Source of the DNA: Ancylobacter amanitiformis
Lineage (GTDB): Bacteria; Pseudomonadota; Alphaproteobacteria; Rhizobiales; Xanthobacteraceae
Reading direction: 5' to 3'
Assembly: GCF_030814815.1 (NCBI RefSeq)
Contig: NZ_JAUSVR010000004.1
Location: 1 to 64,000, forward strand
DNA: 64,000 nucleotides
The notes under the pieces are model-generated. The model saw only the letters and a program-made list of their open reading frames with translations, did not search any database and was not told the DNA's origin. The position numbers were made by a program, and so were the translations under genes. Position 1 is the stretch's first letter, and each line of letters opens with the position of its first letter. Below are positions 26,251 through 40,081 of the stretch, piece after piece.

Positions 26251-26964
26251 ATGACTGAGCTTGCGCCTGACTATACCCCGGCTTTCATCCTGCCGCCCCC
26301 GCGCCACGCCGACCTCTACCAAGACGTGGCTCACCTTGTCGCGGCTGAGGCGCGCAAGATGGGCGGTGGGATGCCTAACCCGCCATCGCAGGAGGAGCGT
26401 GAAGCCTACCTCGACGAGACGGCACCGCGCTTGTGGTTCTGGGGCGAGGGCATCTTCGTCACCCTACCGGTCCTCGGGAGCGCGCATATGCGCCGGGGGG
26501 ATGACGATGCGCCCGCCTTCCGGTGTGTTCGAAAGGGATGGGTGGAGCTTCGCGCGCTGGGGTGTCGCTTCCAAATGGTGATGCCGGAGCGTGGCAGCGG
26601 CGCCTACATTCTCGTTCCCGAGGCTCTCCAGCGCATCGGTCATTGGCCTTGGTGTGTCCTTGGCGTCCCCGTGCTGCTTGCCGCGCTGGTGCCCGCGATG
26701 CTGTATCGCGCTGCCTTCGGTGAAAATAGCTGGCGCGTTCGACGCCTCTGGATGCGCCTCATGTGGAAGCTCCGGCCCGCCTTCATGGACGCGAAGGTGG
26801 GCGCTTGGCGGGTGCAGGACGAGGTTGACGCCAGCGCCTCCCGCCTGATGCGGGCGAAATGGGCGGCGGATGACGCGGCCCGCCAAGCTGCCCGTGAAGC
26901 GGCCTTTGAAGCCGAGGTTGAGCGGCGCCTCGCGGAACGCCTCGCATCCGCCTCGGGGGCCTGA
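26251..26964 (+). CDS. Hypothetical membrane-anchored protein (237 aa)
   Basis: Not recognised. The N-terminal half is soluble and polar. One strong hydrophobic segment is at about residues 128-150 (WCVLGVPVLLAALVPAMLY). The C-terminal third is a basic, then alanine- and charge-rich helix (DAARQAAREAAFEAEVERRL), likely coiled coil. The start was taken at ATG 26251 after a TAAGGG; the frame opens 23 codons earlier. The next gene, a 60-aa membrane protein, begins 2 nt after the stop, so both are probably one unit. Confidence 0.6.
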   Translation: MTELAPDYTPAFILPPPRHADLYQDVAHLVAAEARKMGGGMPNPPSQEEREAYLDETAPRLWFWGEGIFVTLPVLGSAHMRRGDDDAPAFRCVRKGWVELRALGCRFQMVMPERGSGAYILVPEALQRIGHWPWCVLGVPVLLAALVPAMLYRAAFGENSWRVRRLWMRLMWKLRPAFMDAKVGAWRVQDEVDASASRLMRAKWAADDAARQAAREAAFEAEVERRLAERLASASGA

Positions 26965-26966
26965 TC

Positions 26967-27149
26967 ATGTCCCCGTTCCTTGACCGCTTGGGCGGCATTG
27001 GTGCCGCGCTCCTTGTCATCGGCTGGTGCATCAGCGCGCCCCTCGGAATGATCTATTGGGGTGCTAAGGGCTGGCTTCTCGGTGTCGTGCTGTCGCTCAT
27101 CGTGCCGGCCTATGGGCTGGTGAGCACGGTGTTCGGGGTGCTCGGGTGA
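26967..27149 (+). CDS. Small two-helix membrane protein (60 aa)
   Basis: Two hydrophobic helices are visible (IGAALLVIGWCISAPLGMIY and GWLLGVVLSLIVPAYGLVST), with almost no soluble part. It follows the 237-aa membrane-anchored gene by 2 nt. Size and topology recall phage holins or small superinfection proteins, but there is no sequence basis for either name. Confidence 0.55.
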   Translation: MSPFLDRLGGIGAALLVIGWCISAPLGMIYWGAKGWLLGVVLSLIVPAYGLVSTVFGVLG

Positions 27150-27161
27150 GGGCGGCAGGGC

Positions 27162-27179
27162 TAACCCCTCACTATCGCA
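27162..27179 (+). promoter_or_regulatory. T7-like promoter motif, copy A
   Basis: TAACCCCTCACTATCGCA matches the family consensus TAAYMCCYCACTATMGVM. It is intergenic, on the + strand, 13 nt after the small membrane gene, and 59 nt before copy B. The CACTAT core resembles the core of T7/T3-type single-subunit RNA polymerase promoters (T7: CACTATAGGG). Function is inferred. Confidence 0.5.
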
Positions 27180-27220
27180 ATTATGGATCGTCCCGCCCCA
27201 TGCCGGCCGGGTCCAGAGGC

Positions 27221-27238
27221 TAACCCCCCACTATCGAC
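27221..27238 (+). promoter_or_regulatory. T7-like promoter motif, copy B
   Basis: TAACCCCCCACTATCGAC is the second member of a tandem pair with copy A, lying about 115 nt upstream of the DUF3102 gene. Copies A and B share flanking bases (GGC before, AATT-containing sequence after). Iterons for replication are the main alternative reading. Confidence 0.5.
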
Positions 27239-27354
27239 AAATTGGCACGCATCGCGCGCCTGCCGATACGTCAAGCGCTCGTCCTTCGGCTCCCTGAAAA
27301 GGCCGTTGTGGCGGGCGTTTCCGTTTTCAGCCCCGCAGCCTAAGGCCCCCCGCC

Positions 27355-28191
27355 ATGAACAACCTCGAAATCTCCAGCACCGTTCCGGTACCTGTCATCG
27401 ACCTCCCGTTCCTCGCTCGGGAAATCAACGACGCCCACCGGCAAGTGCAGTTCCATGGCAAGTCGATGCTGATGGAGGCGAAGCGGGCCGGGGAGGCGCT
27501 GCTTGAGGCGAAGAGGAGCTGTATCCACGGTGAATTTAAGAAGTGGGTAGCGGACAACTGCGCGTTCTCCTACCAGACAGCCGTCCGGTACATGCGCGTA
27601 GCTAAAAAGATCACGCATGATTCTTTTGAGCAGGGGGACAGCCTGAACGCCTTCCTCGACGCCCACTCCACGCCCCGCCAGCCCGAACCTTCCACCACCC
27701 GCTCCTTCACCCGCGAGGACGCCGAACGTGCCCTGAAATTCCACGCCCTCGCCACCCGAGGCGCCACGGAAGCGGAGCAGAAGGCCGCCTCAGGCAAGCT
27801 CGCCAGCTTCGCAAAGGAGTTCGGCATGACCCCTGAGGCGACCGTTGCGAGGGCGCGCGAGTTCCTCCCGGATGCCGAGAAGACGGACTTTCAACGCGCG
27901 GCTGACGAAGTGAAGAAGCGCAACGCAGAGCGGGAAGCACAGTTCAGCCGCGAACGGGAGGAGTGGGCCGCGCGGGAGGCTGAGCGGGAGGCGGCCTTCC
28001 AGAGAGAGGCCAAAGAGCGGGACGCGCGCGCTGAAAAGCAGGCGGCCACCATCCGAGAACTTCATGAGAAGGTTCGACAGATGTCCGCCCGCCGTGAGGA
28101 ACTCTTCAAGGACCTGCGGGGGAAATCCAAGGAAGAACTCCTCGACCTCCTCGTGTCGGCCCAGCTCCAGCTTGAGGGCTTCGGAGCGTGA
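27355..28191 (+). CDS. DUF3102-like phage/plasmid protein with long coiled coil (278 aa)
   Basis: The N-terminal part (about residues 18-90: REINDAHRQVQFHGKSMLMEAKRAGEALLEAKRS in parts, HGEFKKWVADNCAFSYQTAVRYMRVA) matches the DUF3102 pattern seen in phage and plasmid proteins, with an HTH-like end. The C-terminal half is an extended, highly charged coiled coil (about 165-265, RNAEREAQFSREREEWAARE). It is likely a DNA-associated regulatory or partition-type protein, but its function is unknown. It is the first gene downstream of the A/B motif pair. An ATG start is used, without a strong ribosome-binding site. Confidence 0.7.
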   Translation: MNNLEISSTVPVPVIDLPFLAREINDAHRQVQFHGKSMLMEAKRAGEALLEAKRSCIHGEFKKWVADNCAFSYQTAVRYMRVAKKITHDSFEQGDSLNAFLDAHSTPRQPEPSTTRSFTREDAERALKFHALATRGATEAEQKAASGKLASFAKEFGMTPEATVARAREFLPDAEKTDFQRAADEVKKRNAEREAQFSREREEWAAREAEREAAFQREAKERDARAEKQAATIRELHEKVRQMSARREELFKDLRGKSKEELLDLLVSAQLQLEGFGA

Positions 28192-28200
28192 TGAAAGAGG

Positions 28201-28482
28201 CTAGAAAGCCGAACCGGCCAAGTATCCAACTCCGTAGATTATCGAGTTAAGGATGAGGCTCAAGGCCCCTTGAATTGCCACCCAAGCGCCAATACTGCCA
28301 TCGCGAGCAATGCCGAGTGTCTGATGATACTGGCGAAGCGCAGCGCCGACGACCCAAACCGCTGCGAGAATTAAGGCATACAGCCAAGCGGCGGCCTGAA
28401 AGCCTGTAATGAAGGACCCAACGGTTCCCACGGCCATAAAGAATGAGCCCACGAATCCTCCTGCCTTCTGTGAGGAGACCAT
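28201..28482 (-). CDS. Small multi-helix membrane protein (93 aa)
   Basis: Three hydrophobic stretches are visible (FVGSFFMAVGTVGSFITGF, AAWLYALILAAVWVVGAAL, GALSLILNSIIYGVGYLAG). It is on the minus strand while its neighbours are on the plus strand, with lower GC than the surroundings, suggesting separate origin. It ends 9 nt from the converging DUF3102 gene. Function not recognised; a moron-type or superinfection-exclusion gene is possible. Confidence 0.55.
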   Translation of the reverse strand: MVSSQKAGGFVGSFFMAVGTVGSFITGFQAAAWLYALILAAVWVVGAALRQYHQTLGIARDGSIGAWVAIQGALSLILNSIIYGVGYLAGSAF

Positions 28483-28607
28483 TTTACCTCTGACCTAAAC
28501 TGAAACGTAGCGGCTGGCAAAGATTTCCCCTGTCGCCTGCACTCATAAACCCCTCACGTCGCCCACGCCCCCGTTCAGGCCCACCTTGCATGCCGCAAGA
28601 GCGGCAC

Positions 28608-31600
28608 ATGAGCGGGGGTTTTCTTTTGTCCTCTCGCCGGCCTCTGTCCGGCATGAACGAGCACCTCATGACCCAGCAGAACGAACTCTCGGAAGCCATC
28701 AAGGCATCCTCGAAGCGCCTTGGCGTGGACCCTCTCGACCTCGCCACGGCCATGTCCTACGAGACCGCCGGCACCTTCGATCCGTGGAAGAAAGGCCCCA
28801 CGACGCAGTGGGGCGAGCATCGCGGCTTGATCCAGTGGGGCGAGCCGCAGCGCCAGAAATACGGCGTGACGCAGGACATGCCCGTCACGGCGCAGGTAGA
28901 GGCCGCTGAACGCTACCTCAAGGACACCGGAGTGAAACCCGGCATGGGCCTTCTGGACATCTACAGCGCCATCAATGCGGGCGGCGTGGGCCGTTATGGC
29001 GCCTCCGATGCCGCGAACGGTGGCGCTCCGGGGACCGTGAAGGACAAGGTAGAGACGCAGATGGGCGCGCACCGGTCCAAGGCTGCGGCCTTGCTGGGGG
29101 TGCCGGACATCGCGTCTGCCGATTACGCCCCCATGCAGGTGAAGACGGTCCCCGAACAGATGACCGAGGACACCGCGCGGGAGGCCGCTGGCGGGCCGTC
29201 GCTCGGAACCACCATCGTCCACGCCGCGCGCGAGGACAGCCTCACGGGCTGGATACTCGGCATGGATTGGATGAAGCATGACGATCCGAACTACCGGCTC
29301 GACAAGGAGGAACTGGACAAGCTCACCGTGGGCATCCCTCGGGACCGCTGGAGCGCCTTCGAGAGCGTCGGTTCGCGGGAGCAGGCATTCGCCACGCGCC
29401 AGCAAATCCTTGACCAGATGCAGCGCCAGCAGGAGCTTTCTGAGGCCGGCATCACGGGCACCGCAGCGCGCATCGCGGCGGCCTTCGGGGACCCCATCGG
29501 GCTCGGCGTGGGGTTCGCCACGGGCGGCACCGCGAATGCCATCATGTGGGGCTCCAAGCTCTCCCGGCTGGAGCGCGTGGGTGCGGCTGCGCTGGCCGGG
29601 GCGGGTGTCAATGCCGGCCTCTCGGCGGCTGAGGAGGGCCTGAAGCCGAACTCGGAATGGGATCAGGTGCTGTATTCTGCGGCCGGCGGGGCGTTCCTCG
29701 GGGCCACCTTCGGGGCACTGAGCAAGATGCCGCACATGGCTGAGGAAGCGGCCGAGATTGCCAAGGGCGCCAAGAAGGACGTGGAAGGTATCGAGGCCAC
29801 GTACAGCGCCGTCCCGTTGCGCCCGAAGGACAGTTCCGTGGGCGCCGCTCAGGGTGTCGAACAGGTCCCGCTTCGGCAGGACGCGAACGACTTCATTCGT
29901 CTGGCCGATGAGGAGAACGCGCCCAAGGCCGCCATGGCGCCGCTGCGGTTGCTCGACTCCACGGGCGCGGCGAAGAAGTCCGACAACCCGCTTACCCGCA
30001 TGCTCGGCAACGCCCTTGGCGAGGAGCCGGTGGGCAATATCGACCGGGACATTCCCGTCAACTGGTCGGCATCGCAGGAGCAGGGGCGGCTCTTCAGCGT
30101 CATGGATACGCGCCGCGCCCACGCCATCGAACCCCATTTCAAGGCGTGGGCGGATGCCCGCGACCTTGGCCCTTGGGAGCGGGAGAAGCTGCGCGAGGCG
30201 TTCCAGATCGAAATCACCCGCGCGCGCCGCAACCTCGATCCGACACGCAGCTTCGACCCGGAGGTGATGAAGGCGGTGAAGGAGGTGGCCGCGTGGTTGG
30301 ACGATTACCACGCCCTTGGCGTCGACCCCGGCCGGGCGATAGGTCTTCCCGGTCAGCGCGCGCCGGTTCCCGGTTTCGACCCCGCGATACCGCCGCTGCC
30401 CAACTACATGAACCGGGTGTTCTCCTACACCAAGCTCAATGCAGCCCTGGCGAAGTTCGGCCATGGCGGGGTGGCGGATGTCGTTGCCGCGTCCTTCCGC
30501 CAGATGCAGCCTGATATCGACCCGAAGGCACTCGCCAGTATCAGCCGGGGTTACGTCATGGTTCTTCGCAAGCTGTCCCGCGACATGCACCCCCGTGCCG
30601 CCAATGCGATGTTCGCGGATGATCTGGAGGGCCTTCGCGGGCTGCTTCAGGACCTCCCCGGCGTGGACCCGGAGGCTGTCGAGAGCGTCATGGGGCACCT
30701 CTCCCGCCCCATCGACAAGGGTTCCGTGTCCCGCGCCAAGCACCGCGTGATGCTGGACGAGGGCCTCCGGGTGGAACTGCCGGACGGCACCGTGACCACC
30801 TTCGGGGAACTGCTTCTGGAGGAGAACGCGGGCAAGCTCATGGCCTCCTACAACAGGCAGATGTCGGGACAGGTTGCGCTCGCTCAGGTGCGCATTGAGA
30901 AGGTTGTCGATGGCGAGCGTCACGTCCTTGTCGATGGTCTCGGGGGACCGGGCAAGCTGGACAACATGCTGGAGAAGATGGCGGCGGTGGCGGACGATAT
31001 CGGTCAACCGCAGTCCAAGGTGAGGGCCGATCAACGCCAGATCGAGTATCTCCACACGAGCACCGCCGGTGTGCCGCTCTATGACCAGAGCACGGCGACG
31101 GCGCACGCCCTGCGGCTATGGCGGGAATACGGGCTGGTCCGCGTTGGGGGCCAGCTCGGCTTCGCTCAGGCCCCGGAGATTGGCGCCATCTTCACGGCGG
31201 GCTGGAAAGCGGCGCTCGCCGGCTTCCCGCACTTGCGCGTGCTGCTTCGCGATGTCCGCACGGGCAAGCTCAAGGGCGAGTTCGCGGCGGAAATGGAGGC
31301 GGTGTTCGGTCGCGGTGCGGAACGCCTGCGCAGCGCGGGGGATTGGCAGCTTTCGACCGAGGCGGAATGGGGAACCGCCTATGAGACCAGCCCGCTTATG
31401 CAGAAGGTGGAAAAGACCTTGGGCATCGCCAAGCGCATCACCATGGAAGTGTCCGGCATGAACGCCATCAACACCTTCCTGCACCGCTGGTCCACGTCGG
31501 CCATTCTGCACTGGTTCTCCCGCGCGGCGAACGGGGAAGCCACGACCTCGGTGCAGCGGCTGCGGGCGATGGGGCTTACCGATGACATGGCGGAGCGGGT

Positions 31601-32342
31601 GTTCGAGCAGATGCGCCGGCATCGGACCCTTGAACCGGGCTCCAGCTTCAAGCTCGCGCGGCTCAATCTGGACGACTGGCAGGACCTTCAGGCGCGCGCC
31701 CATTTCGAGCGGGCGGTTCACGCGCGCGGGCGGCGCATGGTGCAGGACAATTCCGCCGGCCTCCTCCTGCCGTGGATGTCGCATCCGGTGGCGCAGACGC
31801 TCCTTCAGTTCCGCGTCTTCGTGATCGGAGCGCATTCGAAGCAGATGCTCCACAACATCCACATGTGGGACAGGGAGAGCGTCACCACGCTCCTCGGGAC
31901 CATGCTGGCGGGCATGCTCGGTCACGTGGCGCAGACCCTCGCGGTGTCCCCGAGCCTGTCACAGAAGCAGTTGGAGGACCGCCTGTCCGTCCAGAGTATC
32001 GCCTTGGGTGGCTTCCAGCGTACCGGCATGTCCGCCCTGGTGCCGCTTCTGGTCGACACGGCGATGCGCGCGGTGGGGCGCAAGGGCGTCTTCAACAGCC
32101 GCTCGACCGACCAGACATCGGACCTGTGGTTCGGCAACCCGACCACGGGGCTGATCGACGACGTGCCCGCTGCCATCAACGCCATTGTCCAGCCGCTCGC
32201 TCAGGGCCGGGCGATGTCGAAGGCGGAAGTCCGTTCGGTCCTGCGCCCGCTGATCTGGCAGAACACGCTTCCCGTGGTGACGCTCTTCGGCCTCATGTCG
32301 AAGGGCCTGCCCGACTACGCCCCTGCCGCCGCGACGAGGTGA
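28608..32342 (+). CDS. Podovirus gp16-like internal virion protein with N-terminal transglycosylase-like domain
   Basis: This very large protein (1244 aa) resembles the ejectosome protein gp16 of T7-like phages, which forms a channel through the envelope and digests peptidoglycan during DNA entry. The N-terminus (about residues 20-160) looks like a lytic transglycosylase or lysozyme fold: KRLGVDPLDLATAMSYETAG with the likely catalytic Glu, TTQWGEHRGLIQWGEPQRQ, and INAGGVGRYGASDAANGG. A Gly/Ala-rich hydrophobic stretch (about 300-345) may be membrane-active. The C-terminal ~230 residues (LLPWMSHPVAQTLLQFRVFV, GMLGHVAQTL, ALGGFQRTGMSALVPLLVDT, WFGNPTTGLIDD) follow the order seen in podovirus internal virion proteins. 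The start is uncertain: ATGs at 28590, 28608, 28653 and 28668 are in frame; 28608 has AAGAG upstream. No other virion gene is nearby. Confidence 0.75.
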   Translation: MSGGFLLSSRRPLSGMNEHLMTQQNELSEAIKASSKRLGVDPLDLATAMSYETAGTFDPWKKGPTTQWGEHRGLIQWGEPQRQKYGVTQDMPVTAQVEAAERYLKDTGVKPGMGLLDIYSAINAGGVGRYGASDAANGGAPGTVKDKVETQMGAHRSKAAALLGVPDIASADYAPMQVKTVPEQMTEDTAREAAGGPSLGTTIVHAAREDSLTGWILGMDWMKHDDPNYRLDKEELDKLTVGIPRDRWSAFESVGSREQAFATRQQILDQMQRQQELSEAGITGTAARIAAAFGDPIGLGVGFATGGTANAIMWGSKLSRLERVGAAALAGAGVNAGLSAAEEGLKPNSEWDQVLYSAAGGAFLGATFGALSKMPHMAEEAAEIAKGAKKDVEGIEATYSAVPLRPKDSSVGAAQGVEQVPLRQDANDFIRLADEENAPKAAMAPLRLLDSTGAAKKSDNPLTRMLGNALGEEPVGNIDRDIPVNWSASQEQGRLFSVMDTRRAHAIEPHFKAWADARDLGPWEREKLREAFQIEITRARRNLDPTRSFDPEVMKAVKEVAAWLDDYHALGVDPGRAIGLPGQRAPVPGFDPAIPPLPNYMNRVFSYTKLNAALAKFGHGGVADVVAASFRQMQPDIDPKALASISRGYVMVLRKLSRDMHPRAANAMFADDLEGLRGLLQDLPGVDPEAVESVMGHLSRPIDKGSVSRAKHRVMLDEGLRVELPDGTVTTFGELLLEENAGKLMASYNRQMSGQVALAQVRIEKVVDGERHVLVDGLGGPGKLDNMLEKMAAVADDIGQPQSKVRADQRQIEYLHTSTAGVPLYDQSTATAHALRLWREYGLVRVGGQLGFAQAPEIGAIFTAGWKAALAGFPHLRVLLRDVRTGKLKGEFAAEMEAVFGRGAERLRSAGDWQLSTEAEWGTAYETSPLMQKVEKTLGIAKRITMEVSGMNAINTFLHRWSTSAILHWFSRAANGEATTSVQRLRAMGLTDDMAERVFEQMRRHRTLEPGSSFKLARLNLDDWQDLQARAHFERAVHARGRRMVQDNSAGLLLPWMSHPVAQTLLQFRVFVIGAHSKQMLHNIHMWDRESVTTLLGTMLAGMLGHVAQTLAVSPSLSQKQLEDRLSVQSIALGGFQRTGMSALVPLLVDTAMRAVGRKGVFNSRSTDQTSDLWFGNPTTGLIDDVPAAINAIVQPLAQGRAMSKAEVRSVLRPLIWQNTLPVVTLFGLMSKGLPDYAPAAATR

Positions 32343-32721
32343 CGTGAGCGGCGGATGAACAAGACCCCGAGGCGGTGTGAGAGCGCTGCCTTGGGGGACC
32401 CGGAATATTCCGTGGCGAAAATTTGAGCGCGTATCTGAAATAGGAAGAAGCGCGCGATACCCCCCAGGCCCCCGCGCCCACGGAATAGCTCCCGAGCGGA
32501 CGCGCCCGTTTTTCCTGAAGGCGCGCGCGACTTGGGAAATCGCGCGGGTCTTCGGATGGCGGGGCGCGCACCCTCAGGCCAGCCTAAGAGCCCCGCCAGC
32601 GCCCGCCTGATGCTGCCGCGATGTATCCCGCCATGCCGTGCTGTAGGCCGCTGGTGAGTCAATCTGACTCGCCCTGAACGCCTTCCACCGTGGCGCCTCC
32701 CGGCCCTATTCTCGGGGTGCC
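32343..32721. other. Non-coding gap after the internal virion protein gene
   Basis: These 379 nt contain no supported gene. A short inverted repeat, GAGTCA-ATC-TGACTC, lies at 32656-32670, about 50 nt before the next start codon, and could be an operator. No T-tract terminator was seen. Confidence 0.55.
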
Positions 32722-33279
32722 ATGACACCTGATGACAACCCGGCCACGGTGCCCACGCCCGAACAGCGCGCGGCCTTCCTTGAGCAACTCCGTACCTATC
32801 TCACGGCCATGTATCCCCGTTGCGGCTACCGGGTCCGCCGAAGGTTGATCGAACGGGCGCGTAACCGTGGCTATTACGGGCGCCTCGGGGAAGTCGCGGG
32901 CATCCTCGCGAACACCTTCATTCGGCACGAGTGCACCGACTACGACCACCTCTTGCGCATCAACGGGGGCGGGGAGGGGCTGACGCGGGAGGAGGCGCGC
33001 ATGGTCGTGGCGCAGGAGGTGGCGGATATCGCGGACATGTGGCGCCGTGGCTCGGCTGAGGGCGATGCCGGCTATGTCGAGCTTCGCCAGCGGTTCACGC
33101 GGAGGCGCCAGAAGAAGGGCAGGCGGCAGCGCAATGCCGGCTTCATCGCCACGGAGAACGAGGCCATGGCGACCTATCTGAAGGGCTGGCTGGAGCGGCG
33201 GGAGCAGGAGCGCAAGCTTGCCCGCGAGGCGCAGGAGGCCAGCCTAGGAGCCCCTCCAGAGACGGCTGGAACGCCCTGA
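32722..33279 (+). CDS. DUF2293-like protein (185 aa)
   Basis: Residues about 20-115 fit the DUF2293 pattern: a Tyr/Pro/Arg start, RRLIERARNRGYYGRLGEVA, the conserved FIRHECTDYDHLL block, then EEARMVVAQEVADIADMWRR. The family is common in Hyphomicrobiales and has no assigned role. The C-terminal third is strongly basic (FTRRRQKKGRRQRNAGF), suggesting nucleic acid contact. An ATG start is used. It follows the virion-protein gene after a 379-nt gap holding a small inverted repeat. Confidence 0.65.
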   Translation: MTPDDNPATVPTPEQRAAFLEQLRTYLTAMYPRCGYRVRRRLIERARNRGYYGRLGEVAGILANTFIRHECTDYDHLLRINGGGEGLTREEARMVVAQEVADIADMWRRGSAEGDAGYVELRQRFTRRRQKKGRRQRNAGFIATENEAMATYLKGWLERREQERKLAREAQEASLGAPPETAGTP

Positions 33280-33487
33280 GCTGTCGGCGTAGCGCGTCCC
33301 CGGCGCGCCCCTGCGGCGGCTCATGGGGCCGTGCTGCGGTTCATTTCCGAGCCTGTTGTGGGCGCTGGTAATTGACCTCAGCCCAATCAACACCATCCCG
33401 AAAGCTGCCCATCAGGGGCGCCTCTGCGGCGCGCGCTGTGTCCCTGCACGTCACCACCAATCACCATCAGCGGAACCGGAGACATCC

Positions 33488-34102
33488 ATGAACGACATCA
33501 CGACCACGGCCACCATGCCCTTGCCTGCGGCAGGGGAGCGGACCTTCCGCGATATCGAGCTTGCCGAGGCGCTCGGCTATAAGCGGCCGGGAGACATCAG
33601 AAAGCTCATCAAACGTCACTTGCCGTTGCTGGAGGCGATGGGATTGGTGCGCCACCGTGGAGCGCCAATCGTCTCGGGCAAAGGCCGCGTGCAGACGGTC
33701 ACGGAGTATCACCTCACCAAGGCGCAGGCCGCGTTCATCATCGCCAAGGCGGACACTCCCGACGCCGACAACGCCCTCATCCTCATTTCCGAGACCTTCG
33801 CCATGGTCTCCGAGGGCAAGCTGGTGGCCGTGGACGCGGCGGCACAGGAGGAGCTTGACGCGGCTGCGGCACGGGCTGCGGAACGGCATCGCCTCATGCG
33901 GGAGGAGAAGGACGACTATTCCCGCATCATGAGGGAATTCAGCCGCTCGCCCTCGCGTAACGTCATCGGGACCAAGCCGGACGGAACGCCCATCCTGAGG
34001 GAACCGACGCCGTTCGAGAAGCAGCGGGAGGAGCGCAAGCGCCTGCAACAACAGGCCAGCCGCGCCGCGAAGCATCGGGCTCCGGGTGATCCGACCTACT
34101 AG
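33488..34102 (+). CDS. Phage antirepressor-like DNA-binding protein (204 aa)
   Basis: The N-terminal domain (about residues 15-105: TFRDIELAEALGYKRPGDIRKLIKRH in parts, GRVQTVTEYHLTKAQAAFIIAKA) has the layout of phage antirepressor/KilA-type DNA-binding modules: a helix-turn-helix like segment, a short wing, and LTKAQA. The C-terminal half is a charged helix ending in a basic tail. ATG 33488 was chosen; the frame opens much earlier without homology. A 29-nt hairpin sequence inside the gene (33642-33670) is repeated just after the stop codon, suggesting an autoregulatory site. Confidence 0.65.
   Translation: MNDITTTATMPLPAAGERTFRDIELAEALGYKRPGDIRKLIKRHLPLLEAMGLVRHRGAPIVSGKGRVQTVTEYHLTKAQAAFIIAKADTPDADNALILISETFAMVSEGKLVAVDAAAQEELDAAAARAAERHRLMREEKDDYSRIMREFSRSPSRNVIGTKPDGTPILREPTPFEKQREERKRLQQQASRAAKHRAPGDPTY
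33642..33670 (+). repeat. Hairpin repeat H1 (inside the antirepressor-like gene)
   Basis: GATTGGTGCG...AGCGCCAATC forms an imperfect 10-bp stem. The 29-nt unit recurs at 34107-34135 with 26 of 29 identities. Coding for part of the antirepressor-like protein would not explain the second, non-coding copy. Confidence 0.7.
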
Positions 34103-34106
34103 GCGG

Positions 34107-34135
34107 GATTGGTGCTTCGCCGTGGAGCGCCAATC
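34107..34135 (+). repeat. Hairpin repeat H2 (just after the antirepressor-like stop codon)
   Basis: GATTGGTGCT (34107-34116) pairs with AGCGCCAATC (34126-34135) over 10 bp with one G-U, 9-nt loop. It begins 4 nt after the stop codon. There is no T-tract, so a simple terminator is not a full explanation. Confidence 0.7.
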
Positions 34136-34230
34136 GTGCCCGCCAAGGGATAAGCTCTCGCCCGTAAAACCTGTACACCTCGACCAATCGTCAAGGGATG
34201 AAGATAAATATTCATCCACCCCTTGCGCGC

Positions 34231-34248
34231 TAACACCCCACTATAGGA
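34231..34248 (+). promoter_or_regulatory. T7-like promoter motif, copy C
   Basis: TAACACCCCACTATAGGA lies in the 442-nt intergenic region after the antirepressor-like gene. With GAG following, CACTATAGGAGAG closely resembles the T7/T3 core and initiation region (CACTATAGGGAGA). Downstream are a long imperfect hairpin and repeat R2, not an obvious gene on this strand. Confidence 0.55.
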
Positions 34249-34337
34249 GAGCCCGAGTGCCCCTGTGCGGGGTAAGACCACGATCAAGGGGAATCATAGA
34301 CTTATCTTCTGCGGTGTCCCGCTGAATGGAGACCATA

Positions 34338-34413
34338 GAGAAGGATGGATATGGGGGTATTGATGAGGATGGAAGATTACAATCATCATCAACCCCACCC
34401 TCCGTTCCTTCTC
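34338..34413 (+). ncRNA. Long imperfect hairpin, possible structured RNA
   Basis: GAGAAGGA (34338-34345) pairs with TCCTTCTC (34406-34413). The arms continue inward with interruptions (TGGGGG with CCCCA-rich sequence, TTGATGAGGAT with ATCATCATCAA) to a loop around 34371-34381. The arm length is about 32 nt. No protein-coding frame explains it. It would be transcribed from T7-like motif C about 90 nt upstream. Structure and transcription are inferred from the sequence only. Confidence 0.4.
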
Positions 34414-34445
34414 AGAGACAGCCTAGCGCCAGCCCGAGGGGTGCC

Positions 34446-34490
34446 CTTATGGCTCCCATAGGTGGAAGGAGAGGCCCTTACCTAGAGAGC
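34446..34490 (+). repeat. Dispersed repeat R2
   Basis: CTTATGGCTCCCATAGGTGG and the following GCCCTTACCTAGAGAGC align with R1 (24838-24880) along its full length with scattered differences. Like R1 it is followed by a purine-rich ribosome-binding-like stretch (GGGGAGGG) and ATG-ATG at 34518, but the frame there is merely antisense to doc. Confidence 0.65.
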
Positions 34491-34544
34491 ACCGGAGAAG
34501 CCGGGGAGGGTGAACGGATGATGGTCATCATCACCATGTCCACC

Positions 34545-34937
34545 TCAGTCTTCGCCTGCGGGGCGCATCGCCCGCCGGATGCGCTCGGCAAGGTCTTCCT
34601 CGCTCAACTCCCCAGAGGCCAAGGCAAGCCATGTCGTCACCGCCTCGGTGTCCGCCATGGTCATCTCAAGGCTGTTGAGGGCGAGGAACAGTTCGCAGGC
34701 CACGAGCGAGGTGCGCTTGTTGCCGTCCACGAAGGGATGGTTCTTCGCGATGCCATAGGCATAGGCGGCAGCGAGGTCCGCCATATCGGGCCGGCCATAG
34801 TGGAAGAGGTTCCGTGGTCGATCCAGCGCCGCTTCCAGCAAGCCTTCGTCACGCAGGCCCGAACCCCCGCCGTGCTCGGCTATCTGCGCATCGTGAACCG
34901 CCAGCATGACCGCCTTGGACACCCATCGCGGTTCCAC
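34545..34937 (-). CDS. doc: Doc-type toxin (Fic/Doc family)
   Basis: Doc toxins phosphorylate EF-Tu and halt translation. This protein (130 aa, normal length) carries the diagnostic HPFVDGNKRT (His67, Asp71), preceded by the DLAAAYAYGIAKN helix, and the N-terminal AEHGGGSGLRDEGLLEAALDRP typical of Doc. It starts at a GTG that shares one base with the stop codon of the upstream antitoxin gene (TAGTG), so expression should be tightly coupled. The pair probably stabilises the element. Confidence 0.92.
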   Translation of the reverse strand: MEPRWVSKAVMLAVHDAQIAEHGGGSGLRDEGLLEAALDRPRNLFHYGRPDMADLAAAYAYGIAKNHPFVDGNKRTSLVACELFLALNSLEMTMADTEAVTTWLALASGELSEEDLAERIRRAMRPAGED

Positions 34938-35161
34938 TACTTGGCAAGCTCCCGCAGCACGTTTCGGCGCTTCTTCATGATGGCGCGCGCCGCTTCCATC
35001 TGCTCCGCGAACTCCGGCTCATAGGGCGTGAGGCGATACCCGTCCGGGGCCTCGGTGAGATAAAGGGTGTCTCCCTGCCCGACATTGAGGCGGGTGAGGA
35101 CCTCCTTGGGAAGCACGGCTCCCACGGAGTTGCCGACCTTGCTGAGCTTCAGTGCGACCAT
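34937..35161 (-). CDS. AbrB/MazE-type antitoxin of the Doc toxin
   Basis: The protein (74 aa) begins MVALKLSKVGNSVGAVLPKE, a swapped-hairpin AbrB DNA-binding domain, followed by LNVGQGDTLYLTEAPDGYRL. The C-terminal helix (EFAEQMEAARAIMKKRRNVL) would neutralise the toxin. ATG 35161 was chosen over the 45-codon longer frame because it opens with the AbrB domain. As usual for type II modules it precedes the toxin and probably represses its own promoter. The Doc partner is often Phd, but AbrB-type partners are also known. Confidence 0.9.
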   Translation of the reverse strand: MVALKLSKVGNSVGAVLPKEVLTRLNVGQGDTLYLTEAPDGYRLTPYEPEFAEQMEAARAIMKKRRNVLRELAK

Positions 35162-35313
35162 GGCGCGCTCCTCGGGGGACGTAGACGGGATGGCGTACGA
35201 ACATAGGTAGGTACGGTGTGTGGGGCAATAGGCGGCTCGGGGACCCCATACCGATAACCCCCTCGAAAATCGCTCTTTCCGCTCCAGCATTTTCAACGCC
35301 TCGCGAAGGCTCT

Positions 35314-35350
35314 TGACGACATACCGTAACCACTTGTATTCGGTATGTCG
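35314..35350 (+). promoter_or_regulatory. Promoter with embedded 10-bp inverted repeat upstream of the serine recombinase
   Basis: A perfect inverted repeat CGACATACCG (35317-35326) and CGGTATGTCG (35341-35350), 14-nt spacer, overlaps a promoter-like pair TTGACG (35314-35319) and TATTCG (35337-35342, 17-nt spacing). The recombinase ATG is 21 nt downstream. This layout fits autorepression or a recombination site (res-like). Confidence 0.6.
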
Positions 35351-35370
35351 TTCCGAGCGAGGATTGATCG

Positions 35371-35973
35371 ATGTCCACCAAGCGCGTTGCCTTCTATCTC
35401 CGGGTGTCCACGGGCGAGCAGACCACCGCGAACCAGCGTCGCGAGCTTGAGGTGGTTGCCGAGCGGGCCGGGTGGAACGTGGTTGCCGTCTTCGAGGACG
35501 CGGGTATCTCCGGCGCCAAGGGCCGTGAGCATCGTCCCGGCTACGATGCCCTGCTCAAGGCCGTGACGCGCCGTGAGGTGGACATGGTCGCCGCATGGTC
35601 GGTGGACCGCATCGGCCGCTCCATGCCGGACCTCGTGTCCTTCCTCACGGAACTGCATGCCCGTGGCGCGGACCTCTACCTTCACCAGCAAGCCCTTGAT
35701 ACCTCCACCCCTGCCGGCCGGGCCATGTTCCAGATGATGGGCGTGTTCGCGGAGTTCGAGCGTTCGATGATCCAAGAGCGCGTCAAGTCCGGCCTCGCGC
35801 GCGCCAAGGCGGACGGCACCAAGCTTGGTCGCCCCACCATCGGCGCCGACGTGGAGGCCCGCATTCGGGCGCTCCGGGCCGAAGGAATGGGCATCCTGAA
35901 GGTGGCGAAGACGCTGGGGATTGGGGTGTCCGCCGTGCAGCGTGTCGTCTCGGCTGAACCCGCCGGAGCCTGA
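35371..35973 (+). CDS. Serine recombinase, resolvase/invertase family
   Basis: The protein (200 aa) cuts and rejoins DNA through a covalent serine link. The catalytic domain begins VAFYLRVSTGEQT with Ser13. It continues with EDAGISGAKGREHRPGYDALL, AWSVDRIGRSMPDLVSFLTEL (parts) and the EFERSMIQERVKSGLARAKADGTKLGRP hinge (parts). The C-terminal HTH (ADVEARIRALRAEGMGILKVAKTLGIGVSAVQRV, parts) binds DNA. Length fits resolvases and invertases. A promoter with a 10-bp inverted repeat lies just upstream. It may resolve multimers, or invert a segment such as that between R1 and R3. Confidence 0.95.
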   Translation: MSTKRVAFYLRVSTGEQTTANQRRELEVVAERAGWNVVAVFEDAGISGAKGREHRPGYDALLKAVTRREVDMVAAWSVDRIGRSMPDLVSFLTELHARGADLYLHQQALDTSTPAGRAMFQMMGVFAEFERSMIQERVKSGLARAKADGTKLGRPTIGADVEARIRALRAEGMGILKVAKTLGIGVSAVQRVVSAEPAGA

Positions 35974-36153
35974 GCTTCTGCCAAGCCCCTGATGATCTTC
36001 ACGCCCGCCTCGGGGAGCCCCTAGCGAGTCCCTGAGCGGGCGCTTTCACGCGCCGGTATTCCGCCAGCCGGCACGTCTCCACGGCCGTCACCGGTCATCC
36101 CTGACTCGCCACGCGCCTATCCCTTCCCACCACACCACGGAGCCCGCCGCATC

Positions 36154-36609
36154 ATGACCGATGCCACCCCCACGCACGCCCCTACGTCCCCCATTCTCGC
36201 CACCCTGCGCTTCGGCGTCCATGCCATCCGCGCCACCCGGCACCCCGCCCATGGTCGCATGCTCATGGCGCAGGATGTCCTCCTAGCCATCGGCTACGTG
36301 CCCAAGCCGCCCCATGGCACACGCCCCATCCTCGCGGGCCTCAAGGTGGCCGACGCGAACCGTTTGCTCCTCAAGGGCGAGGACTTCGACGCCTCCGAGG
36401 GGCGGCAGGCACCAACCTTCTCCAAGGCCATTTTCCTCACCCGTGCGGGCCTCGACCAGCTTGTGGCGAACGCTGCCGCGAAGAAGGTGAAGACCTTCGG
36501 CCCGTGGATGGCTGACGTGATGGAGAACGGCGCCCCGAAGCGGAAGCCCAAGCCGGTGCCGGCAGTGACCCCGGAGGTCCCGCCGGAGGGGCTCCCTTGG
36601 GAGGAGTGA
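36154..36609 (+). CDS. BRO-N-like phage antirepressor protein (151 aa)
   Basis: The sequence TLRFGVHAIRATRHPAHGRM, LMAQDVLLAIGYV, ADANRLLLKGEDFDASEG and FLTRAGLDQLVANAA follows a BRO-N/antirepressor layout. A Pro-rich tail (KRKPKPVPAVTPEVPPEG) ends the protein. ATG start. It is at least the third antirepressor-type gene in this element. It lies directly upstream of T7-like motif D and the polymerase-like gene. Confidence 0.6.
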   Translation: MTDATPTHAPTSPILATLRFGVHAIRATRHPAHGRMLMAQDVLLAIGYVPKPPHGTRPILAGLKVADANRLLLKGEDFDASEGRQAPTFSKAIFLTRAGLDQLVANAAAKKVKTFGPWMADVMENGAPKRKPKPVPAVTPEVPPEGLPWEE

Positions 36610-36635
36610 GGGGCTTATTCACAGCGACTGTCTGC

Positions 36636-36653
36636 TAATACCCCACTATAGGA
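36636..36653 (+). promoter_or_regulatory. T7-like promoter motif, copy D
   Basis: TAATACCCCACTATAGGA is the closest of the four copies to a T7 promoter: it shares TAATAC and CACTATAGG with it, with two bases fewer between the two parts. It is flanked by an inverted repeat TGTCTG (36629-36634) / CAGACA (36658-36663). It lies 27 nt after the BRO-N-like gene and about 190 nt before the polymerase-like gene, in the sense direction for that gene. Confidence 0.6.
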
Positions 36654-36845
36654 ATAACAGACAATTCGCGTGAATTATGCGCCTCCTCACATGGACCGAA
36701 CGACGATGCCAACGCGGGCCTGACGGGGCCTCGCGGGGGATAGTTGTGGATGGCCGTGTGAGGGGGCGTCTATCCCTTTTATTCCACCTAAATCACTCGT
36801 GAATTAACGCTTGAACGTCCCCCTCCGATGCCGCAGGAAGTCCCC

Positions 36846-38192
36846 ATGAGACACGCCACACTCCCGCCGGCTCGGCACCGTTGGTTCGATGATTGGCGAG
36901 GCGCCAGAGGCCCCGCATTGTTGGCGCTGGTGGCCGATATCCGCGCCATGGTCGACGCGCACGAAGCCGCCTCGGGTGCCCGAAAGCGAGCCCGTAAGCC
37001 CGTCGATCAGCGGCATTTCGAGACGGCCGTGGAGGTCGTGGTGGCGAACCTCGCCCATGCCGTGCTGGTGCCGCCGGAGACCGGCCGGATTGCGGTCCTC
37101 ACGGGGAACGGGGCGAGGGGCGCGACGCGCTATGCCAACAGGGCGCTCGGGGAGCCGCTCCGGGCGTTGCTGGGGACTCTTGGCGAGCTTGGGGTGTTGG
37201 ATTGGCAATGGACCGGGAAGCGGCATGAGGCGTCGTCTCTGGCGCCCACGGAGGCGTTCCGTGAGCGGGTGCATGGGGCTGGCGTCACCCTGGCGGACTT
37301 CGGCCGGGTGCCGGGGGAGGAGACCATCATCCTGTCGCAGAAGGTGCGGTCTTCAATGCCGTCCGGAGAGGCCCCCTTGCGGAAGCTGGTGAACTATCCC
37401 GACGCAGCCGAGGCGGACGCCATGCGGCACGACATGAAGGCCCTGAACGGCTTCCTCTCATCCGCTGACATCCGTTTCGTGGAGGATGGATTAGGGCCGG
37501 TGGACACCAGCAACCGGACCCTTCGCCGTCATTTCGTGCGGCAAGCGGGGGACACGGATGCTGCGTTCACCTTCGACCTCTCGGGGCGCCTCTTCGGGGG
37601 CTTCTGGCAGACCATGAAATCGGAGCGCCGCGCCGGCATCCGCATCAATGGCGAGCCGGTTGCCGAACTGGACTATGGGCAGATGGCCGTGAGGCTGGCC
37701 CATGCCCATGTGGGGGCGACACCTCCCGAGGGCGACATGTACGCCTTGCCGGGGCTGGAGGGGCACCGCGCGGCGGTGAAGACGGCGGTGAACGTCCTGT
37801 TGAACGACACGCACAGGCGGAACGCGTGGCCCTCATCGCTCACGGAGGCGGGGGATGGGGCGGACGCTGAGGCGTCTCTCCCCGAGGGCTGGACCGTCGC
37901 CAAGGTGCGGGCGGCTGTTCTCGCCCGCCACCCGGCTCTTGCTCCGTGTCTCAGCGCGGGCCTTGGTCTGAGGCTGATGCACACGGAGAGCGAGATACTG
38001 GTTTCGGTGCTGAAGGAGATGATGGCACGGGGAATTGTCGGCCTCGGCATCCATGATGGCCTCCTCACGCCAGCGTCGAAGAGTGAGGAGGTGAGGCGGA
38101 TCATGGTGGAGGAGGCGAGGATCAAGGCGGGAACCACCATCCCGGTCTCCGTCACGGGCCTCTATGTACAAGACTCTTCCTTCCATTTATAA
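36846..38192 (+). CDS. Putative family-A-type palm polymerase (divergent DNA or RNA polymerase)
   Basis: The N-terminal half (about 1-240) has no recognised domain. The C-terminal half carries, in order, the palm motifs of family A DNA polymerases and T7-type RNA polymerases. Motif A-like is INGEPVAELDYGQMAVRLAH with Asp276 (compare DYSQIELR). Motif B-like is GHRAAVKTAVNVLLN with Arg308 and Lys312 at the family's R-x3-K spacing, though the usual aromatic residues are Asn. Motif C-like is GIVGLGIHDGLLTP with His403-Asp404 (compare VHDE in PolA, IHDSFG in T7 RNA polymerase). GRLFGGFWQTMKSERRAGIR precedes motif A. No exonuclease domain is apparent and the 448 aa are short for either family. AGGAAG supports ATG 36846 over 36828. 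T7-like motif D lies upstream. DNA replication, priming or element-specific transcription are all possible; activity is unproven. Confidence 0.6.
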   Translation: MRHATLPPARHRWFDDWRGARGPALLALVADIRAMVDAHEAASGARKRARKPVDQRHFETAVEVVVANLAHAVLVPPETGRIAVLTGNGARGATRYANRALGEPLRALLGTLGELGVLDWQWTGKRHEASSLAPTEAFRERVHGAGVTLADFGRVPGEETIILSQKVRSSMPSGEAPLRKLVNYPDAAEADAMRHDMKALNGFLSSADIRFVEDGLGPVDTSNRTLRRHFVRQAGDTDAAFTFDLSGRLFGGFWQTMKSERRAGIRINGEPVAELDYGQMAVRLAHAHVGATPPEGDMYALPGLEGHRAAVKTAVNVLLNDTHRRNAWPSSLTEAGDGADAEASLPEGWTVAKVRAAVLARHPALAPCLSAGLGLRLMHTESEILVSVLKEMMARGIVGLGIHDGLLTPASKSEEVRRIMVEEARIKAGTTIPVSVTGLYVQDSSFHL

Positions 38193-38202
38193 GAGGCATA
38201 AG
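38176..38202 (-). repeat. Dispersed repeat R3 (inverted relative to R1)
   Basis: On the minus strand this reads CTTATGCCTCTTATAAATGG plus AAGGAAG, identical to R1 (24838-24864) except one base. It overlaps the last codons of the polymerase-like gene and lies between two converging genes. R1 and R3 thus form a 27-bp inverted pair 13.3 kb apart. Confidence 0.8.
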
Positions 38203-38227
38203 GAAAATGACGAAAAACTATTGACAA

Positions 38228-39916
38228 TCAATCGGTTGTCGGAAGATCCGAAGGAAACTCGCGAGGTGTGAGCTTGTTGGCTCCTGCCGAAGGTGCATCC
38301 TCAAGCGAGTACCTTGGTGCCTTGTTCAACTCAGCCGCGAAGAACGTCGCGCTCGCGTGTTCATAAGACCTTGCCACGCCGAATACGGTGTGACCGACCA
38401 GAAGGTCACGCACGCCCTGCTCTACGCCGGCCTCCAGAAGCCGTGTCTTGAAGGTATGGCGCCACGCATGGTTCGGGTTGAGGCGGGCATCCAGCTTCGC
38501 CTCCTTCCTCACCCACGCGGCGAGGTGAATGGCTTGGACTTCCGCCTGCGATGTCTTGGCGTCTGCCTTGGTGCGCCGCTCCGGGTCATAGAATAGGGGT
38601 CCCTGTCCCCGAGCACGAACGAACTCCGGGAACCCGAGTTCCAGAAGATGCTCATGCAGGAAGGCGCGCCGAGAATGGCCATTCTTCACGGTGCCCGCCT
38701 CAGGCGTGATGTTCATCACCCACACGCCGGCTTCTTGATAGATATCCGCACCGCGAAGCTGCGTTATCTCCCGCACGCGCGCACCCGTGTAGGCGCACAG
38801 CCAAGGAACCCAACGCCTCGCAAACGCTTTCGTGGGGTTCTTGGGGTCATCGGTCACAGCAAGGGCAGCGCGGAGAATGGCGCGCACCTCAGCCTCCCGG
38901 AACACTGGCTCGCGCTCCCGGACCTGCTTCACCGCCTTCATCTTCACTTCGGCGGCCGGGTTGGATATCAGGAGGCGCCCGCCCTCGCGCGTCGTCGCCC
39001 ACCCCATGACGGACTTCAGCGCGGCGATATCGTTATCACGCACGGTCTTGGGCGAGAGCTTCTTGACGGTGAGACGGTGTTCTGCCCATCGCCATATGTC
39101 ATCTACCGATATGGTCCGCGCATCCGGCCCTTCTAGGAAAGCGTCACAGTCCTCAATCTTCGGCGCATAGACCTTGATCGTGCCGGGGGATGCCTGCGGA
39201 TTGCCGGCCTTCCAGAGGTTGAACAAAGCCGGGAGGGTAAGCTTATCGGCAGAAGCCTTCGCCGCCTTCACGGGCGCCGTAGCGGCCGGTGCGGGGTGTT
39301 TCCATTCTGGGAACTGCTCAAGCCTATCGTCCTTCCGGTAGTCGCCTCGCGCAAGGTTCATGAGGCGGTGATGGGCAGCGAAGAATTCTTCCTCCATCTC
39401 CTCCATGAAGATCGGCCGGGACCCGTCCGCCAGCGTCACGCCTTCGTTCAGAAAGAACTGAGCGAGGTTTCCGTGGTCATGCAGGAATGCGTGCACCCGC
39501 TGCGTGGTGCGAGGACCGCGCGGCCGTTCGTGCTCCTCCATGTCGGAGCCATCATCGACTACGCCGCCATGGGGCTCTAAATCGCGGAGAGTTTCGAGGG
39601 TAAGGAGCCAGCCTTCGGGGTCTGTTCCGGGGTCATCTTCGCGCGACGCGACGAACCAGCGGTACCAGCGGCCAGCCAGTGCCCGTGCCTGCTTGCGGGT
39701 AAGCGTCGTGACGCCCTTCGACAGGGAGGCGAACTTGGCGTCCCATTCGAGATGCAAGTCGGCGTTTAGCTTCCGGGCCTCGGCTGCGTTCGTGCCGAGC
39801 CAGCGGACAATCTCGCCGCGCCCTATCTGCTGCCGGAGTCTCTCAGGAACGACCTTCCGAAAGCGCCAATTGCCGGACTTCGGATCACGCTTCGGGGGAG
39901 GGTACGCCATCTTCAT
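38228..39916 (-). CDS. int: Tyrosine integrase of the element
   Basis: A phage-type site-specific recombinase (562 aa) that integrates the element into tRNA-Leu. The N-terminus (NWRFRKVVPERLRQQIGRGE, then GTNAAEARKLNADLHLEW) is the usual start of large proteobacterial integrases. The core-binding SAM-like domain is at about 225-310. The catalytic domain holds Arg380 (AYTGARVREITQLR), Lys411 (TVKNGHSRR), His483-x-x-Arg486 (HAWRHTFKTRLLEAG), His509 (LVGHT) and Tyr518 (SYEHAS), so all catalytic residues are present. ATG 39916 has GTGAGG upstream. The gene starts about 80 nt from the attachment site, next to arm-type repeats. Confidence 0.95.
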   Translation of the reverse strand: MKMAYPPPKRDPKSGNWRFRKVVPERLRQQIGRGEIVRWLGTNAAEARKLNADLHLEWDAKFASLSKGVTTLTRKQARALAGRWYRWFVASREDDPGTDPEGWLLTLETLRDLEPHGGVVDDGSDMEEHERPRGPRTTQRVHAFLHDHGNLAQFFLNEGVTLADGSRPIFMEEMEEEFFAAHHRLMNLARGDYRKDDRLEQFPEWKHPAPAATAPVKAAKASADKLTLPALFNLWKAGNPQASPGTIKVYAPKIEDCDAFLEGPDARTISVDDIWRWAEHRLTVKKLSPKTVRDNDIAALKSVMGWATTREGGRLLISNPAAEVKMKAVKQVREREPVFREAEVRAILRAALAVTDDPKNPTKAFARRWVPWLCAYTGARVREITQLRGADIYQEAGVWVMNITPEAGTVKNGHSRRAFLHEHLLELGFPEFVRARGQGPLFYDPERRTKADAKTSQAEVQAIHLAAWVRKEAKLDARLNPNHAWRHTFKTRLLEAGVEQGVRDLLVGHTVFGVARSYEHASATFFAAELNKAPRYSLEDAPSAGANKLTPREFPSDLPTTD

Positions 39917-39940
39917 CTGGACCGCCTCACTGGACCAAGG
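39916..39940 (+). repeat. Right arm-type integrase-site candidates
   Basis: TCTGGACCGCCTC (39916) and ACTGGACCAAGGA (39929) repeat the CTGGACC core with a 13-nt period, as do the two left-end copies at 22351-22375. They overlap the integrase start codon, so integrase binding could also regulate its own expression. Confidence 0.5.
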
Positions 39941-39996
39941 AGGCGACCGGAAAGCCTTGAAAATCAATAACCTACTGACAATGCACCAAGAAAGGT

Positions 39997-40018
39997 TGGT
40001 GCGGTCGAGAGGACTCGA
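39997..40018 (+). repeat. Right attachment site (within tRNA-Leu)
   Basis: The second copy of the 22-bp repeat. It begins at the tRNA's encoded CCA and ends in the T-loop, so integration leaves an intact tRNA gene on the right side. Confidence 0.93.
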
Positions 40019-40081
40019 ACCTCCACGGTGTTACCCACTGCCACCTCAAGGCAGCGCGTCTACCAATTCCGCCACGACCGC
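39997..40081 (-). tRNA. tRNA-Leu (anticodon GAG), integration target
   Basis: Read on the minus strand, an 85-nt type II tRNA folds well. The acceptor stem is GCGGTCG with CGACCGC, then A and an encoded CCA. The D-arm contains AATTGGTAGACGC, the anticodon stem is CTGCC/GGCAG with loop TTGAGGT (anticodon GAG, leucine), there is a long variable arm, and the T-arm is GAGG-TTCGAGT-CCTC. Its 3' part is the attachment site of the adjacent element and is duplicated at 22266-22287. Confidence 0.97.

Follow-up and report, generated by a model that had tools for sequence, protein, structure and literature searches.

A predicted minimal family A-type polymerase fitting TV-Pol in an integrated island of Ancylobacter amanitiformis

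TV-Pol was defined in 2008 by Iyer, Abhiman and Aravind as a minimal family A polymerase core with a hairpin Arg, a palm, and fingers that carry RxxxK and an Asp (PMC2579912). In one subset, an N-terminal globular domain is present and the gene lies beside a gamma-delta resolvase, a lambda-type integrase or a transposase; TV-Pol elements include those of alphaproteobacteria, and one Brucella element also encodes a Bro-N/KilA-C protein (PMC2579912). Primase plus polymerase activity was predicted for TV-Pol (PMC2579912). In this study, we analyzed P0001, a putative 448-amino acid (aa) polymerase that fits TV-Pol. P0001 is encoded in a 64,000-nucleotide (nt) stretch of DNA from Ancylobacter amanitiformis (contig NZ_JAUSVR010000004.1, positions 1 to 64,000), and this whole stretch is called the window below.

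Two further systems are relevant. The first, divPolA2, was described in phages in 2024 by Yutin et al.; the accessible text of that paper presents it as a novel variant, possibly a repair or RNA polymerase, that lacks both an exonuclease and a homologous thumb and carries a globular domain at its N-terminus where the thumb would be (PMC11348598). The second, CcPol of SCCmec, is classed as TV-Pol and, according to the accessible text, forms with MP an active DNA primase-polymerase, priming and extending DNA with deoxynucleoside triphosphates (dNTPs) (PMC7581432). The CcPol papers, in their accessible parts, present it as an exception to the two known primase families (PMC7581432, PMC10061031). 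The names TV-Pol and divPolA2 are not equated in the accessible portions of PMC11348598, PMC10061031 and PMC7581432.

Family, catalytic residues and predicted fold

The open reading frame (ORF) of P0001 is on the + strand, with ATG at 36846, a coding part of 36846-38189 and a stop codon at 38190-38192. An alternative in-frame ATG at 36828, 18 nt upstream, would give 454 aa (six residues more) and may be the true start. The gene and its parts are as follows.

36846..38192, + strand: gene of the predicted TV-Pol/divPolA2-family polymerase (P0001, 448 aa); ORF, profile, fold and alignment evidence
36873..37361, + strand: N-terminal domain, residues 10-172, winged-helix-like; AlphaFold2 model, Foldseek and weak profile matches
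37569..38111, + strand: palm and fingers core, phrog_4756 match; motif A D276, fingers D297/Y299/R308/K312, motif C H403-D404

The original prediction, which was made from the sequence, named three motifs, and these are present at the residues given there: LDYGQMAVRL with D276, R308-x3-K312, and GIHDGLL with D404. The Asn residues that it placed at the O-helix aromatic positions are N316 (K+4) and N320 (K+8), positions that we take to correspond to F762 and Y766 of Pol I. As it had also stated, an exonuclease domain is not recognised; residues 10-172 are modelled as a separate domain.

P0001 has matches in 36 of 397 genomes of the order, its own genome included (protein search, E <= 1e-6), and its occurrence is therefore patchy. 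The single other Ancylobacter genome in this 397-genome sample had no match. Named relatives are from Ancylobacter radicis (64% identity) and from Kaistia soli and K. terrae (54%). Four plasmid records contain a family match. When phage members were used as the query, 33 loci were found in a scan of viral contigs; scans with single proteins gave zero loci, and three other alignments gave two loci each. By tblastn with one phage member, 241 phage records were obtained (Rheinheimera, 115; Vibrio, 99).

Alignment A1 contains P0001 and 35 of the 42 fetched loci (three of less than 400 aa, one duplicate and three long outliers were omitted). Alignment A7 contains 38 members, namely P0001, three genome_contigs loci and 34 of 39 viral candidates. 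Among the five viral candidates omitted, one was on a contig already used, and each of the other four resembled a kept locus in its match figures, their identity being unchecked. The bacterial-only A1 profile, which includes P0001, matches the divPolA2 proteins AUR84708 (E 9.5e-22) and Barba18A gp034 (E 3.1e-27), and also ORF100 of Vibrio phage ICP1 (E 2.4e-27). ORF100 (L199:3086-4753, 555 aa), which is annotated as hypothetical, is a family member and carries equivalents of D276, R308, K312, H403 and D404. A literature search for a published tie between ORF100 and a polymerase gave only seemingly unrelated titles.

Although family members are only 16-64% identical to P0001, the catalytic residues are conserved. 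In an 83-sequence alignment, R248, R262, D276, Y299 and K312 are found in all 83 sequences, followed by R308 and D404 (82 each), S382 (81), H403 (80) and D297 (74). R248 falls in a modelled strand (246-251) before the palm and corresponds to the hairpin Arg of TV-Pol; the two palm Asp (D276 and D404) and the fingers RxxxK and Asp (R308, K312 and D297) of the TV-Pol definition are likewise present. Asn is found at K+4 in 36/83 and at K+8 in 44/83. Position D276+5 is taken to be that of the steric-gate Glu710 of E. coli Pol I. The residues found there among the 83 sequences include His (40), Phe (26), Gly (4), Tyr (4), Ala (2) and Glu (2). In the divPolA2 protein AUR84708, the gate is Glu and motif C is Phe-Asp-Glu; thus, the family still retains some of the Pol I pattern. 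As a separate observation, the sugar-gate residue is Ala in P0001 and the Ancylobacter protein (residues 277-281, window 37674-37688), and it is His or Phe in 66/83 members.

Library searches gave one clear match of P0001, phrog_4756 (unknown function; E 5.4e-19, residues 242-422), which all 38 A7 members also match. Three further PHROGs match only at E >= 0.055, and zero families were matched in Pfam, NCBIfam and PADLOC. The 20 Pfam families matched by any of the 38 A7 members do not include T7-type RNA polymerase models. When PDB sequences were searched with P0001 by phmmer, there were three matches, all to unrelated proteins at E >= 0.31.

The original prediction had proposed a structure prediction and a sensitive profile comparison as checks. 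The AlphaFold2 model of P0001, built from A7, has a predicted local distance difference test (pLDDT) value of 89.8 and a predicted template modelling (pTM) score of 0.89, and it matches palm polymerases. In the model, D276 is in strand 270-277, D404 is between strands 400-402 and 405-409, and R308 and K312 are within helix 308-320. Thus, D276 and D404 are predicted to sit in the strand and hairpin expected of motifs A and C. The TV-Pol thumb is described as two antiparallel helices; in the model, one long helix (188-206) precedes the hairpin. A Foldseek search against PDB gave 745 matches at E <= 10 and 61 at E <= 0.001 (best E 1.4e-5), and the best 50 of these 61 are all Pol I-type DNA polymerases, as judged by title. 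Against viral models, one of the first eleven matches (E 2.5e-21 to 2.5e-16, 400-450 aa) is a Barba31A protein that bears the label DNA polymerase, and PolA-type models come next. The replication protein of Zamilon virophage was matched at E 6.3e-4.

The profile comparison, which was run as hhalign, relates the family to PolA; to the extent that they were carried out, neither check refuted the prediction. With full-length profiles, the values were 55.7% for PolA, 24.9% for T7-type RNA polymerases and 0.6% or less for eight other sets (reverse transcriptases, recombinases, integrases, neighbours and HsdM-like proteins). With the palm only, PolA gave 81.2% and a score of 43.7 over 188 columns (reversed 12.4; 30 column shuffles <= 23.5), and D276 aligns to the Asp in ADYSQIELR and H403-D404 to VHDE. 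Both this margin over the shuffles and the conservation across the 83 sequences exceed what chance would give. T7 RNA polymerase gave 59.6% and a score of 39.3 over 47 columns (reversed 15.2; shuffles <= 21.8), and this alignment spans only motif C (IHDS) and the preceding helix.

Two other candidate relatives were set aside. Reverse transcriptase gave 0.7% and a score of 17.2 in the palm-only comparison (reversed 12.3; shuffles <= 16.0). Pol B was considered for a motif B (K-x3-N) and a motif A (D-x4-Y/F/H) that resemble those of Pol B; the HD motif C, the GR hairpin and the family A profile and fold matches led us to set it aside, Pol B itself being uncompared.

From the set conserved in 82-83 of 83 sequences and the fold and profile matches, P0001 is very probably a polymerase, and its place in the family A / T7 RNA polymerase superfamily agrees with the original prediction. 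That prediction could not assign the protein to a named family. This view must be revised because P0001 fits TV-Pol (PMC2579912) and is homologous to divPolA2 (PMC11348598). Judged by its sequence, P0001 is a minimal family A-type polymerase fitting TV-Pol, the phage branch of which has been published as divPolA2. The lineage, called "undescribed or barely described", was described in 2008 and 2024, and only the second half of that phrase holds.

N-terminal domain and integrated island

Residues 10-172 modelled alone gave a pLDDT of 88.3, and the order of elements is helix, helix, strand, helix, strand, strand, helix. None of the 759 Foldseek matches of this domain was at E <= 0.001 (best E 0.065). 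The 50 matches listed, among them MarR/PadR-type regulators, ribosomal eS10 and eS19, MAGE, WRN RQC and CodY, are presumably winged-helix folds. A profile search of PDB sequences with the domain gave 14 matches, all to regulators or AspA, none below E 0.098; these too we take to be winged-helix proteins. Because the Foldseek and profile matches agree, though none is significant alone, we call the N-terminal domain of the family winged-helix-like, a fold that the model and matches make suggestive, not proven. The modelled domain probably binds DNA. For the N-terminal domain of divPolA2, the accessible text of the 2024 paper reports that similarity to anything was not found (PMC11348598).

The original prediction placed the gene in a mobile element, and the surroundings bear this out. 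P0001 lies in an island bounded by attachment (att) repeats, with a recombinase and an integrase as neighbours. In a congener (G401), the two flanks of the island meet directly at an intact tRNA, and this is the empty site. The features of the island are as follows.

22266..40018, unstranded: integrated island (17.75 kb) with a 22-bp direct repeat at its two ends; repeat, and empty site in the congener
22266..22287, unstranded: left att repeat, TGGTGCGGTCGAGAGGACTCGA; repeat search
22376-23236: gene for an SRAP protein (SOS-response-associated peptidase), left end of the island
23985..24920, + strand: Rha / Bro-N protein; PF09669 E 1.5e-26, PF02498 E 5e-14
28590..32342, + strand: T7-type internal virion protein that carries an endolysin domain; phrog_342 E 3.7e-131
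33323..34102, + strand: weakly antirepressor-like protein; phrog_63 E 0.0055, without a Pfam match
34545-35296, - strand: Fic/Doc-like gene and MazE-type antitoxin gene
35371..35973, + strand: serine recombinase (resolvase/invertase); phrog_125 E 2.5e-53, commonest neighbour cluster (32/42 loci)
36154..36609, + strand: 151-aa gene between recombinase and polymerase, without a Pfam or PHROG match; cluster in 3/42 loci
38228..39967, - strand: tyrosine integrase of the island; phrog_1 E 4.5e-27, PF00589 E 4e-9
39997..40018, unstranded: right att repeat, equal to the 3' end of tRNA-Leu(gag); repeat search
39997..40081, - strand: tRNA-Leu, the integration target

The family scans with Pfam and/or PHROGs covered 16 of the larger island proteins, P0001 among them. 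The island also encodes a DUF3102 protein and a DUF2293 protein, and none of the 16 proteins was recognised as a capsid, portal, terminase or helicase. A search for direct repeats closely flanking the recombinase-polymerase trio, in the style of the Brucella element, gave only 11-base matches.

The contexts were counted over 42 loci, with the window included and one duplicate (L057) dropped. Any of four recombinase/integrase clusters is present in the fetched stretch at 38 of the 42 loci; two of these clusters, c6 and c15, were labelled integrases by eye, with no family search behind the label. A Bro-N cluster is found in 7/42. In addition, 19 loci encode a zinc-motif protein of 227-294 aa with an invariant C-x4-C...C-x2-H...HG (for example, L071:8396-9154). 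In 11 of these 19 loci, its gene is on the same strand directly upstream of the polymerase gene, at -32 to +103 nt. Given the start codons used, a twelfth shares 110 nt with the polymerase gene, and the remaining seven are further upstream (three), downstream (three) or on the other strand (one). One representative matched zero families in Pfam and PHROGs, and the cluster was not found in the island of P0001. The zinc-motif protein may be a dedicated partner of the polymerase.

Several side observations were made. The genome that encodes P0001 has a second family member, 34% identical to P0001 (L055:9322-10626; G000:C7:181254-182453). At that locus, a zinc-motif gene overlaps the start of the polymerase gene by 4 nt, and large c8 and c26 proteins adjoin. 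Large internal virion/ejection-type proteins (clusters c7, c8 or c26) are near the polymerase in 13/42 loci; examples are window 28590-32342, L074:4530-9020, L061:11306-13699 and L069:4564-7431, and the types are phrog_342, phrog_6651, endolysin/M15 peptidase and one cluster without any match. Outside the island, window 41048-41100 (about 50 bp, comprising the end of ORF 40197-41054, lipB-like by eye, and the bases just beyond) matches many places in its own and related genomes.

Proposed role and alternatives

We consider it fairly probable, taking the explanation as a whole, that a TV-Pol-type polymerase, recruited by its N-terminal domain, primes and/or extends for copying of the element. 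In this mechanism, the palm (D276 and D404) and the fingers (R308-x3-K312, D297 and Y299) would carry a two-metal polymerase site, and the N-terminal domain would bring P0001 to element DNA. P0001 would make a short primer on a single-stranded template and/or extend a primer with dNTPs, and the excised or transposing element would then be copied with host factors. For P0001 itself we infer catalytic activity, priming, dNTP preference and service in element replication. The primase-polymerase role of P0001, drawn by analogy from CcPol, a member of the TV-Pol class that primes DNA, is the one that we prefer but propose only tentatively.

Several observations weigh against this explanation. The template modelling (TM) scores of the P0001 model to PDB polymerases are low (0.2-0.3), since the matches are confined to part of the chain. 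No Pfam polymerase model, PF00476 included, matches any of the 38 A7 members at E 0.1. The Ala at the gate of P0001, where Pol I has its steric-gate Glu, makes the dNTP preference uncertain. A D5 helicase or single-stranded DNA-binding protein was not recognised among the 16 scanned island proteins. Ma-LMM01 was named as a TV-Pol holder (PMC2579912), and the bacterial-only A1 profile gave no match in it (three of four test records matched). With the 83-member profile, Ma-LMM01 gp030 is the best of 69 ORFs, the match being weak (hmmsearch E 0.003; hhalign 43%, next ORF 23.5%); gp030 adjoins two transposases, a setting like that described for TV-Pol (PMC2579912), and to this extent counts weakly in favour. 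As of 2020, other TV-Pols were uncharacterised to the knowledge of the CcPol authors, in the accessible text of their paper (PMC7581432). Finally, according to the accessible text of PMC11348598, barbaviruses encode a regular PolB besides divPolA2, which is in a variable neighbourhood, and this would be more in keeping with an accessory function. Such a function in phages, the unrecognised helicase and the Ala gate leave room for repair and for RNA synthesis.

P0001 might serve the element as an accessory DNA polymerase for repair, gap filling or lesion bypass, or else as an enzyme of conflict or anti-defence, and not as its replication enzyme. The barbavirus arrangement, for which repair was suggested in the accessible text (PMC11348598), is consistent with this explanation, as are the unrecognised exonuclease, the patchy occurrence (36/397 order genomes) and the SRAP protein in the same island. 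However, recombinase/integrase clusters recur in 38/42 bacterial loci, and CcPol, the relative by class that has been tested, primes DNA (accessible text of PMC7581432). We regard an accessory enzyme as rather unlikely.

It is less likely still that P0001 is an RNA polymerase of the small single-subunit type, transcribing the element and reading promoters through its winged helix. The palm profile is related to that of T7 RNA polymerase (59.6%), the motif C Asp is followed by Ser, Gly or Ala in 81/83 members, as in HDS of T7 RNA polymerase, rather than by Glu, and Glu occupies the steric-gate position in only 2/83. This option was also raised for divPolA2, for which mitochondrial RNA polymerase was among the structural matches, in the accessible text of PMC11348598. 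In contrast, RNA polymerases are absent from the 50 PDB matches listed (the best 50 of 61 at E <= 0.001), the palm alignment to T7 RNA polymerase has 47 columns versus 188 for PolA, and a gate that is bulky in most members (His 40 and Phe 26 of 83) suggests sugar selection. It is very improbable that P0001 has kept the palm fold but lost polymerisation, serving solely to bind DNA or RNA: the low sequence similarity to PolA and the loss of the O-helix aromatics would suit it, but both catalytic Asp and R-x3-K are kept at 16-64% identity, which is not expected of a dead enzyme.

Returning to a polymerase that serves element copying, a broader proposal, which we consider doubtful, concerns the whole family. 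It may be a self-recruiting primase-polymerase in which a single chain of 450 aa combines winged-helix initiator, primase and polymerase, and the zinc-motif partner is often encoded directly upstream. This would unite the resolvase-element TV-Pols with divPolA2 of lytic phages, ICP1 included, and the P0001 branch, with its Ala gate, might lay ribonucleotide or mixed primers.

The points that are new here are the link between TV-Pol and divPolA2, the winged-helix-like N-terminal domain, the zinc-motif neighbour in 19/42 loci, and the tRNA-Leu island with its empty site. Two descriptions, TV-Pol of bacterial mobile elements (2008) and divPolA2 of phages (2024), are joined with a full catalytic set, and the N-terminal domain left unassigned in both papers gains a likely winged-helix fold. 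Very few family A primases have been tested, and P0001 is a compact candidate with clear residue predictions; its homologues differ naturally at the sugar-gate position (Ala, Phe, His or Glu).

Comparison with the described systems

T7 RNA polymerase resembles P0001 in the palm profile relation, an HD-S type motif C and a GR-type motif before the palm. However, it is about twice as long (883 aa) and is not among the 50 PDB matches listed, and its N-terminal part is presumably of another kind.

Members of divPolA2 share the core with P0001 by homology, lack an exonuclease and have an N-terminal globular domain, and AUR84708 and Barba18A gp034 are of similar size (430 and 435 aa). In contrast, the published members are phage-borne, whereas P0001 belongs to an integrated bacterial island, and AUR84708 is nearer to Pol I than P0001 at the gate (Glu) and motif C (Phe-Asp-Glu). 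In the accessible text of PMC11348598, divPolA2 is not tied to the TV-Pols of resolvase elements.

CcPol is, like P0001, a mobile-element family A polymerase of the TV-Pol class, and in the accessible text on it, it primes DNA with a partner. CcPol-MP has an adjacent OB-fold partner; of the two genes beside that of P0001, the one at 36154-36609 matched no family in the family scans, and the other is the integrase.

The TV-Pol N-terminal domain was predicted to be all-helical in 2008 (PMC2579912), whereas the P0001 model has a beta wing. A D5 helicase, none of which was recognised in the island of P0001, is linked or fused in another TV-Pol subset and is not required of the resolvase-linked one. 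TV-Pol and P0001 have in common the hairpin with its invariant Arg, the two palm Asp, the RxxxK and Asp fingers, the lack of a nuclease and, in a subset of TV-Pol, the extra N-terminal domain. The mobile context of TV-Pol, with resolvase, lambda-type integrase and Bro-N, is shared by the island of P0001.
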